DNA from: Gammaproteobacteria bacterium | GTDB taxonomy: Bacteria; Pseudomonadota; Gammaproteobacteria; Steroidobacterales; Woeseiaceae | NCBI GenBank assembly: GCA_009937505.1 | Contig: JAACFJ010000007.1 | Location: 1-35,932, forward strand | DNA: 35,932 nucleotides | Reading direction: 5' to 3' | Shown: in pieces, positions 31,777-34,508 of the stretch | Numbering within the stretch: the first letter of the stretch is position 1 | Layout of the letters: the number at the start of each line of letters is the position of its first letter | The notes under the pieces: generated by a model | What the model saw: the letters and a program-made list of their open reading frames with translations, nothing else | What the model was told of the DNA's origin: nothing | Database searches by the model: none | Made by a program: the position numbers and the translations under genes

Positions 31777-32640
31777 CTACAGGGCCATCGCCGATCGAAG
31801 CTTCTTGATTGCGTTGGCTTCGACCTGGCGGACGCGCTCCGCCGAGATGCCGTATTCATCAGCGAGATCGTGCAGCGTCCGCTTGTCCTCCGTCAGCCAG
31901 CGGCTCTCGATGATGTGCCGGCTGCGATCGTCGAGGGTCCTGATGGCGGCAGCCATGCGATCGGTCGCGTCTTCGTTGAAGTCCGCCGTCTCGACGAGCT
32001 TCGCGGGATCGGAGTTCGGGCTGGGCAGGTAAGCGGCCGGCGCAAACGCGCGCTCGTCATCGGCATCCGGTGCCGGATCGAAGATCGCGTCCCGTGCGTG
32101 AAGCCGCTTCTCCATCTCGGTGACTACCTCGGGGCTGACGCCAAGATCTGCAGCGACTGCCTGAGTTTCGTCGAACGTCAGCCATGAGAGATTCTTCTTC
32201 GCCTTGCGAAGATTGAAGAAGAGCTTGCGTTGCGCTTTCGTGGTCGCGACCTTGACGATGCGCCAGTTGCGCAGCACGAATTCGTGGATCTCGGCGCGAA
32301 TCCAGTGGACCGCAAATGACACGAGACGCACGTCGTAGCCGGGGTCGAAACGTTTCACGGCCTTCATGAGGCCGACGTTGCCTTCCTGGATCAGGTCGCT
32401 GAGCGGCAGGCCGTAGCCGGTGTAGCCTTTCGCAATGTGCACCACAAAGCGAAGGTGCGCGAGGACAAGTTCGCGTGCCGCATCAAGGTCATCTTCCTCA
32501 CGGAACCGGTTCGCGAGCGCCTGCTCATCTTCCTTGCTGAGCACAGGCACGGAACCGACCGCCTGGATATAGGCGTCGAGACTGCCGACCGGTCCGGCCA
32601 GCATCAGTTCCTGATTTCGAAGCGCTACAGCTGTGGTCAT
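31777..32640 (-). CDS. rpoH: RNA polymerase sigma-32 (heat-shock sigma factor)
   Basis: A 287-residue sigma-70-family factor that directs transcription of heat-shock genes. Region 2 (AHLRFVVHIAKGYTGYGLPLSDLIQEGNVGLMKAVKRFDP) is nearly that of E. coli sigma-32. The RpoH box, QRKLFFNLRK (residues 137-146), separates it from other sigma factors. Region 4 ends HDLADEYGISAERVRQVEANAIKKLRSA. The ATG at 32640 has AAGGAGAG at 7 bases. A CIRCE operator lies 28 bases before the start, so the HrcA repressor is likely to control it. A strong terminator follows the gene. It is downstream of ftsX on the same strand, the conserved gammaproteobacterial order. Confidence 0.98.
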   Translation of the reverse strand: MTTAVALRNQELMLAGPVGSLDAYIQAVGSVPVLSKEDEQALANRFREEDDLDAARELVLAHLRFVVHIAKGYTGYGLPLSDLIQEGNVGLMKAVKRFDPGYDVRLVSFAVHWIRAEIHEFVLRNWRIVKVATTKAQRKLFFNLRKAKKNLSWLTFDETQAVAADLGVSPEVVTEMEKRLHARDAIFDPAPDADDERAFAPAAYLPSPNSDPAKLVETADFNEDATDRMAAAIRTLDDRSRHIIESRWLTEDKRTLHDLADEYGISAERVRQVEANAIKKLRSAMAL

Positions 32641-32668
32641 TCAGTTCTCTCCTTGTGGGACGGCAATT

Positions 32669-32695
32669 TTAGCAGTCGACGTATTAGAGTGCTAA
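32669..32695. promoter_or_regulatory. CIRCE operator (HrcA binding site) in the rpoH leader
   Basis: TTAGCAGTC, nine bases (GACGTATTA), then GAGTGCTAA. This matches the CIRCE consensus TTAGCACTC-N9-GAGTGCTAA at 17 of 18 arm positions, with exact spacing. It lies 28 bases upstream of the rpoH ATG (minus strand) and 128 bases beyond the 3' end of ftsX, consistent with a repressor site at the rpoH promoter or leader. Confidence 0.88.
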
Positions 32696-32823
32696 CCAAA
32701 GCGAACGTTCCGCAAGGATGCCAGAATTTTTCCTTTTTAAAAGAGTAAGTTACAAATCGTTACGAAATGTTCGCCGGGCCCCGCCCCGTATGACGCAGCG
32801 CCGCATGCGCAGCCCGAAAACGG

Positions 32824-33789
32824 CTATTTCGGCTCTATCGAGCGCATGTGGCGCGCGGCTGCCAGCCACGATCCAGCCAGGCCCAGGATCACACCGACGG
32901 CGACAATGGCGAGGCTGTCCCGGAGGTCCAGGGTGAGCATGGTGACGCCGCTTTGGTACAGGCCCGCCAGCCGGGCAACGGTCGGGCGCAGCATGTACAG
33001 GCCGTACTGAACGAGACCGAGGGCGAGTACCGAACCGAATAGCCCGAACCAGAAGCCGCTCCACAGGAACGGCCGGCGCACGAAGGCATTGGTTGCGCCG
33101 ATGAGCTTGGTAACTTCGATCTCGTCACGGCGGTTTTGAATCTCGAGCCGGATCGTGTTGCCGATGATGACGATTATTGCGGCACCCAGCAGGCCGGCGC
33201 CGATCATGATGGCTTGTTGCACGATCTCGAGTATCGCGTGGAATCGCTGCACCCACTCGGTGTCGACCTGCACGAATTCGGTCTCCGGCAGGCTGTCGAG
33301 TTCCTCTCGTAAGAGAGTCATCGATTGAGGTGTGTTCGCAGGGCTGGGCCTTACCACCAGTGTATGCGGCAGCGGGTTGTCGGGAAGATGATCGAGAGCA
33401 CTGCCGAAGCCGGACTGTTCCTTGAATTCTGCCAACGCCTCTGCCGCCGTAATCAGTCGCACGTCATCCACGTCGGCACGCTGTGATATCAACCGGGCGA
33501 GCGCCTCCGCTTCGTCGACGGAAACACCTGCGTCGAGGAAAACGGAAAAGTCGAGCGCGTCGTCCCAGCCGCTGCTGATGGCAGTGAAGTTCTTGATGGC
33601 GAGGTTAAGCGCCGCGGGTATCGCGAGAGTTACCGCAATAACGAGAATAATCATCAGGCTCGCAAACGGCTGGTGCAAGAGCCTGCTGAACGACGCCGAT
33701 GCCGTCCTGCCGTGACGCCCGAGCCAGATGGCCACCGGTCCCGAAGAACGCAGCGGTGCCACCGCGTCGGAATGCCGTGTCACCGCCAT
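32824..33789 (-). CDS. ftsX: Permease-like cell division protein FtsX
   Basis: The 321-residue membrane partner of FtsE, which controls peptidoglycan hydrolase activation at the septum. There is a cytoplasmic N-terminus, then helix 1 (FASLMIILVIAVTLAIPAALNLAI), a periplasmic loop of about 110 residues (DFSVFLDAGVSVDEAEAL to SLPETEFVQVDTEWVQRF), and three further helices. Typical FtsX features are AIVIIIGNTIRLEIQNRRDEIEVTKLIGATNAFVRRPF, read here as AIIVIIGNTIRLEIQNRRDE, and the final LAGSWLAAARHM. Its start overlaps the end of ftsE by 10 bp, so synthesis is coupled. Order ftsY-ftsE-ftsX-rpoH is as in E. coli. Confidence 0.96.
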   Translation of the reverse strand: MAVTRHSDAVAPLRSSGPVAIWLGRHGRTASASFSRLLHQPFASLMIILVIAVTLAIPAALNLAIKNFTAISSGWDDALDFSVFLDAGVSVDEAEALARLISQRADVDDVRLITAAEALAEFKEQSGFGSALDHLPDNPLPHTLVVRPSPANTPQSMTLLREELDSLPETEFVQVDTEWVQRFHAILEIVQQAIMIGAGLLGAAIIVIIGNTIRLEIQNRRDEIEVTKLIGATNAFVRRPFLWSGFWFGLFGSVLALGLVQYGLYMLRPTVARLAGLYQSGVTMLTLDLRDSLAIVAVGVILGLAGSWLAAARHMRSIEPK

Positions 33790-34508
33790 CCGTCATCGCC
33801 TCCCTGCGGCACGTAGTCGTCGTCGAAATGCGCCACGAAGTCGTCCTCGTCCGTCGCTTGCTGCAGACGACCCTCCTCGAGTCCGATGCGTCGGCAACCC
33901 AGTTTGTCGATGAGAGCGATGTCGTGGCTCGCGATCAAAAGCGTAACGCCGACCTCGTTGAAGCGCCGGAATATGCGCATGACTTCAAGCGACAGGTCGG
34001 GATCCAGATTGCCCGTCGGTTCATCGGCAATCAGCAGTTTGGGCCGGGTCACGATTGCCCGTGCAATACCGACTCGCTGTTGTTCGCCCGCCGAAAGCGT
34101 TTCGGGATTCTTGTTTTCCTTGTGCAGCAGGCCGACCTGGTCGAGGGCGGCGCGCACGCGCTTGCCGGCATCGCGGGGGCTTAGACCGGCGATGATCAGC
34201 GGCATCGCAACGTTGTCCGACACCGGACGGTCATAGAGCAGTTTGTGGTCCTGGAACACCATGCCGATCTGTCTGCGATAGCCGGGAATCTTGCGGCGGC
34301 GCACGCGATGCGTGTTCTGGCCATCGACGATGACCTGGCCGCTCGTCGGCCGCTCGATCAGCGCAATCAGTTTGAGCATCGTGCTCTTGCCGGCGCCCGA
34401 GTGCCCGGTAACGAATACCATCTCACCCTTGTCGACGGACAGCGACAACCCGGACAGTGCTTCCTGCCCGCCCGGGAATTGTTTGGTCACGTTTTCGAAC
34501 TGAATCAT
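33780..34508 (-). CDS. ftsE: Cell division ATP-binding protein FtsE
   Basis: A 242-residue ABC-type ATPase that works with FtsX at the division site. The Walker A motif is GHSGAGKST (residues 35-43), the Q loop GMVFQDHKLLYDRPVSDNVAMPL is characteristic of FtsE, the signature is LSAGEQQRV, Walker B is LLIADEPTGNLD, and the switch His lies in IASHD. The C-terminal tail after the ATPase core (LQQATDEDDFVAHFDDDYVPQGGDDGWR) is acidic and somewhat longer than in E. coli (222 residues). It overlaps ftsX by 10 bp and begins 11 bp after ftsY. Confidence 0.97.
   Translation of the reverse strand: MIQFENVTKQFPGGQEALSGLSLSVDKGEMVFVTGHSGAGKSTMLKLIALIERPTSGQVIVDGQNTHRVRRRKIPGYRRQIGMVFQDHKLLYDRPVSDNVAMPLIIAGLSPRDAGKRVRAALDQVGLLHKENKNPETLSAGEQQRVGIARAIVTRPKLLIADEPTGNLDPDLSLEVMRIFRRFNEVGVTLLIASHDIALIDKLGCRRIGLEEGRLQQATDEDDFVAHFDDDYVPQGGDDGWR

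Follow-up and report, generated by a model that had tools for sequence, protein, structure and literature searches.

In the 35,932-nucleotide stretch of gammaproteobacterial DNA analyzed here (the window), the heat-shock sigma factor gene rpoH is preceded by a 27-bp inverted repeat that, judged from its sequence, very probably works as an HrcA operator and is merged with the rpoH promoters. This operator, CIRCE, normally controls chaperone genes. Repression by HrcA/CIRCE and activation by RpoH are commonly regarded as two parallel systems, and E. coli serves as the model for rpoH control. The arrangement at the rpoH gene suggests that the two heat-shock systems are probably wired together.

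The repeat reads TTAGCAGTC-GACGTATTA-GAGTGCTAA on the forward strand of the window and TTAGCACTC-TAATACGTC-GACTGCTAA in the reading direction of rpoH. Its arms match the consensus TTAGCACTC-N9-GAGTGCTAA at 17 of 18 bases around a spacer of exactly N9, and a gap of 28 bp separates it from the rpoH ATG. This bears out the first-pass annotation of the DNA, which had described a CIRCE element with one mismatch and N9 spacing 28 bases before rpoH. With up to three mismatches allowed, the window contains no other CIRCE match, and none of 100 shuffles gave any. Genome-wide (3.09 Mb in a fragmented assembly that is 88% complete) there are three CIRCE sites, the one at rpoH and two perfect ones, and the reversed pattern found no match in the whole genome. 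The features of the locus are compiled in the table.

Table. Predicted features at the rpoH locus of the window.
Feature	Position	Strand	Basis
CIRCE operator (predicted HrcA binding site)	32669..32695	.	17/18 arm bases; 0/100 shuffles; conserved before rpoH
sigma-E type -35 element GGAACGT	32705..32711	-	conserved offset in class leaders; 0/31 at groESL
sigma-E type -10 element TCTAA	32684..32688	-	spacer T-N-A kept at rpoH, not at groESL; N16 spacing as in E. coli
left-arm hexamer TTAGCA resembling a sigma-70 -35	32690..32695	-	promoter scan; weak by itself
sigma-70 extended -10 TGCTAAAAT, right arm plus three bases	32666..32674	-	TGnTAnnnT in class leaders
ribosome-binding site AAGGAG of rpoH	32649..32654	-	sequence reading; relatives G-rich at the same distance
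rpoH, heat-shock sigma factor sigma-32	31777..32640	-	TIGR02392, 396 bits, cut-off 323
ftsX, neighbour upstream of rpoH	32824..33789	-	TIGR00439 over cut-off
ftsE, neighbour upstream of rpoH	33780..34508	-	TIGR02673 over cut-off

From the site the first-pass annotation had proposed HrcA control of sigma-32, and it had tied this proposal to an hrcA gene in the same genome, to further CIRCE sites at groESL/dnaK and to conservation of the site in the rpoH leaders of relatives. We found hrcA present and complete (TIGR00331, 337 bits at a cut-off of 197; PF01628, E = 2e-63), with grpE coming next after it. Each of the two perfect CIRCE sites precedes a groESL operon and immediately follows a sigma-32-like promoter, CTTGAAA-N13-CCCTAT (12/13, a score reached in none of 300 shuffles). 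The leaders of the two operons are nearly identical, the promoter abutting the operator in both. Because the three CIRCE sites of the genome stand there, groESL (twice) and rpoH are the predicted HrcA targets. The whole-genome scan found no CIRCE at hrcA itself. The best sigma-32 promoter match before hrcA was at chance level (9/13), and so we make no claim of sigma-32 control over hrcA. Before rpoH, too, no sigma-32 promoter match rose above shuffles (best 8/13), and autoregulation of rpoH by sigma-32 was rejected as a candidate. The genome also carries an RpoE gene (TIGR02939, 296 bits, cut-off 236), which is adjoined and followed by an ORF that by eye reads as RseA-like.

The window groups with Woeseiaceae, its closest named relative being an uncultured Woeseiaceae genome with a 95% identical RpoH. 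CIRCE (at least 16/18, 25-108 bp before the gene) was present at all 80 named rpoH loci fetched, which come from Woeseiaceae, Steroidobacteraceae, Nevskiaceae and unclassified Gammaproteobacteria, as well as in 30/30 loci of the nearest genomes, the window among them. The reversed motif never reached 15 in the rpoH loci of relatives. Two relatives have a second RpoH-like gene or fragment, at G025:C56:9145-9705 (86% identity over 187 residues) and at G015:C25:25863-26690 (51% identity over 274 residues).

At the level of the class, which as defined by GTDB takes in the former Betaproteobacteria, hrcA was detected in 268 of 369 genomes. The class sample consisted of 140 rpoH leaders from these gammaproteobacterial genomes, chosen as best-scoring RpoH hits and not by random draw, with a site defined as at least 14/18. 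CIRCE stood before rpoH in 110 of 119 hrcA-bearing genomes versus 7 of the 21 in which hrcA was not detected (Fisher p = 9e-9; the Fisher p values given here are optimistic, as related genomes are not independent and kinship is ignored). With one genome per family, 52 of 55 hrcA-bearing families had the site, and the reversed motif was found in 0/140 class leaders. Among the seven CIRCE-positive genomes without detected hrcA, one (G152) is 99% complete and four are only 62-79% complete, so that hrcA was possibly overlooked in these four. Conversely, CIRCE before rpoH is missing in 9 of 119 hrcA-bearing genomes. In family f166 the link between HrcA and rpoH was lost without loss of hrcA, since G415, G209 and G321, all three of them hrcA-bearing genomes of this family, have no CIRCE before rpoH. 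Two genomes of another family, in which no hrcA was detected (G261 and G133, loci L202 and L215), carry a degenerate palindrome, TGTGCACTC-N9-GAGTGTTAA, before rpoH, perhaps an operator in decay or in altered form. The presence of hrcA and the conservation of the site in close relatives and across the class support HrcA control of sigma-32 as a prediction; CIRCE at rpoH is apparently widespread and looks like the usual arrangement in hrcA-bearing Gammaproteobacteria, not a local rewiring.

Alignment of the leaders on the operator (87 non-redundant leaders for the order and 112 for the class; further counts are on 117 class leaders) revealed what the first-pass annotation had missed, an apparent overlap of the operator with sigma-E and sigma-70 promoters. 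In the order-level alignment GG[AG]A[AC]C extends as far as -12, the spacer opens with TAA and the right arm is followed by AAT. Across the class, 79 of 112 leaders have GGAACTT (5/7 or better) at exactly -16 from the left arm, where no other offset exceeds 11, and the end of the left arm together with the spacer reads TCTAA, TCTCA or TCTTA in 66/117. GGAACTT-N16-TCTNA is the known form of the sigma-E promoter. The window matches it with GGAACGT-N16-TCTAA, the -10 element straddling the border between left arm and spacer: two of its bases end the arm and three begin the spacer. At the other end of the operator, the right arm and the three bases after it read TGnTAnnnT in 111/117 class leaders, and TGCTAAnnT at this place has the form of a sigma-70 extended -10. 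The only sigma-70 site returned by a promoter scan of 32500-32900 was TTAGCA-N18-TAAAAT with TG (9/12). At rpoH, moreover, the decay of the two arms is uneven: 39 of 117 leaders have G at left position 2 (TTGGCA, nearer to TTGACA), whereas only 2/117 deviate at its mirror position, which is the first T of the -10. Such asymmetry fits an overlapping promoter and has no explanation in a pure operator.

The conserved composite before rpoH can be written as GGAACTT-N9-TTAGCACTC-TNA-N6-GAGTGCTAA-nnT. It occurs once in its own genome, at rpoH. A phylum-wide scan, which is of low sensitivity with three mismatches over all specified bases and was used for specificity only, found it in 12 of 398 genomes of a sample biased towards complete genomes, many of them enteric- or pseudomonad-like; all 12 belong to the class of the window, and 11 of the matches lie before rpoH and one before clpB. 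In genome G130 the sigma-E/CIRCE composite (L327, contig C8:47853-47898) precedes a ClpB-like ORF, unlike the rpoH gene of this genome, which lies on contig C4 and has no CIRCE.

The operator could be real and the promoter look-alikes a by-product of the CIRCE sequence (TTAGCA...TGCTAA), with the true promoter upstream and HrcA acting as a roadblock. TTAGCA and TGCTAA are indeed part of the CIRCE consensus, the sigma-70 call scores only 9/12, and E. coli rpoH has several promoters. We nevertheless regard this as unlikely, as the key conserved bases (GGAACTT at -16, T-N-A in the spacer, and T29) lie outside the arms and are not a feature of CIRCE at groESL, and as the sigma-E boxes before E. 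coli rpoH are spaced identically although no CIRCE is present there. The comparison with groESL used a control alignment of 31 CIRCE sites from Gammaproteobacteria, which share operator sequence, genomes and repressor with the sites at rpoH. There the operator comes after a sigma-32/sigma-70 promoter, the spacer is variable and no GGAACTT stands at -16. The sigma-E -35 at the fixed offset was found in 84/117 rpoH sites versus 0/31 groESL sites (Fisher p = 2e-14), the T-N-A spacer in 66/117 versus 0/31 (p = 7e-10) and T29 in 112/117 versus 5/31 (p = 4e-19), kinship being ignored in all three. The promoter fusion at rpoH would thus account for a CIRCE spacer that is conserved there and not at groESL.

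It is less probable still, and in our view very unlikely, that the promoters work while HrcA has a small effect on rpoH, the operator being kept mainly since its arms double as promoter. The right-arm bases common to operator and -10 are the best kept, and some genomes without detected hrcA retain the site, as this would have it. The left-arm bases GCACTC, however, are kept at 96-99% across class leaders although no promoter element needs them in full, and the site goes with hrcA (110/119 versus 7/21). Moreover, CIRCE-less leaders retain a sigma-E-like promoter with other bases between the boxes, and the promoter therefore does not need the arms. That the palindrome works at the mRNA level, forming a hairpin or thermometer in the leader of rpoH, was rejected as highly improbable: CIRCE is an inverted repeat and translation of E. 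coli rpoH is thermoregulated, but the predicted transcription starts exclude the left arm, so that the transcript would contain the right arm at most, folding of the leader and early coding region is no better than that of shuffles (z -0.7; a weak test, the E. coli control reaching only z -1.1), and the spacer T-N-A and the upstream GGAACTT would be left unexplained. A chance or decayed palindrome, for which the one mismatch in the right arm along rpoH (GACTGCTAA) might speak, is already refuted by the conservation of the site in 80/80 named relatives and, together with hrcA, class-wide, in line with the 0/100 shuffles and with the recurrence of the same G-to-C mismatch in other conserved rpoH sites (about 10-15% at that position), and practically nothing is left of it.

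From the sequence of the element we infer that HrcA shuts off both promoters and in this way acts as a gate on rpoH, at which a cytoplasmic signal, the folding status read by HrcA/GroEL, meets the envelope-stress signal of sigma-E. A HrcA dimer on CIRCE would cover the sigma-E -10 as well as the sigma-70 extended -10, and we propose that with both -10 elements covered rpoH transcription would therefore be low while HrcA is active. HrcA activity is known from other bacteria to be lost when GroEL is occupied. By analogy, unfolded proteins occupying GroEL would leave HrcA inactive and both promoters open, and sigma-32 would be made. Sigma-32 would then act on groESL, which itself has a sigma-32 promoter and CIRCE, and the rise of GroESL would restore HrcA and shut down rpoH and groESL together. 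HrcA would act twice on groESL, directly and via sigma-32, with GroEL closing the loop. Envelope stress would enter via sigma-E, gated by HrcA.

In E. coli control genomes hrcA is absent, and the E. coli leader before rpoH has GAACTT-N16-TCTGA and no CIRCE. Several other CIRCE-less leaders retain GGAACTT-N16-TCnnA. The simplest reading for E. coli would be that the operator was lost together with hrcA, the sigma-E promoter staying in place. We consider it somewhat more probable than the converse that control of rpoH by HrcA via a roughly 46-bp sigma-E/sigma-70/operator element is the ancestral gammaproteobacterial circuit and that the E. coli pattern is derived from it by loss of hrcA and operator with the sigma-E promoter kept. 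If this is true, the sigma factor itself answers to a chaperonin-sensing repressor in most hrcA-bearing Gammaproteobacteria, with E. coli as a reduced exception. The composite element is compact and testable in cultivated relatives.

Permina and Gelfand reportedly described the HrcA regulons of beta-, gamma- and epsilon-proteobacteria in 2003, possibly with some rpoH sites among them, and Ueki and Lovley are said to have studied Geobacter RpoH in 2007. In the literature searched, with subscription journals mostly outside it, we recognised no earlier description of a sigma-E/CIRCE fusion, whereas CIRCE at rpoH has a precedent in a prediction for Geobacter. The E. coli rpoH promoter P3 (sigma-E) resembles the element described here in its -35/-10 spacing and likewise has ftsX directly upstream of rpoH; in contrast, E. 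coli is without hrcA and without CIRCE at this place. At groEL2 of Myxococcus xanthus CIRCE overlaps promoter elements under dual control by sigma-32 and HrcA, but there the controlled gene is groEL2, and it is the -35 region that the operator overlaps (PMC9040617). For Geobacter sulfurreducens, a perfect CIRCE is predicted at -51 before rpoH (PMC545781, Table 8), and as in our genome hrcA is present and CIRCE is found at groESL too (PMC545781). That prediction, however, concerns one site in a delta-proteobacterium, reported for one species among those covered (PMC545781). Compared by description only, the portion of the published account considered mentions no sigma-E fusion at this site (PMC545781), whereas the operator before rpoH described here appears to be class-wide and promoter-fused.
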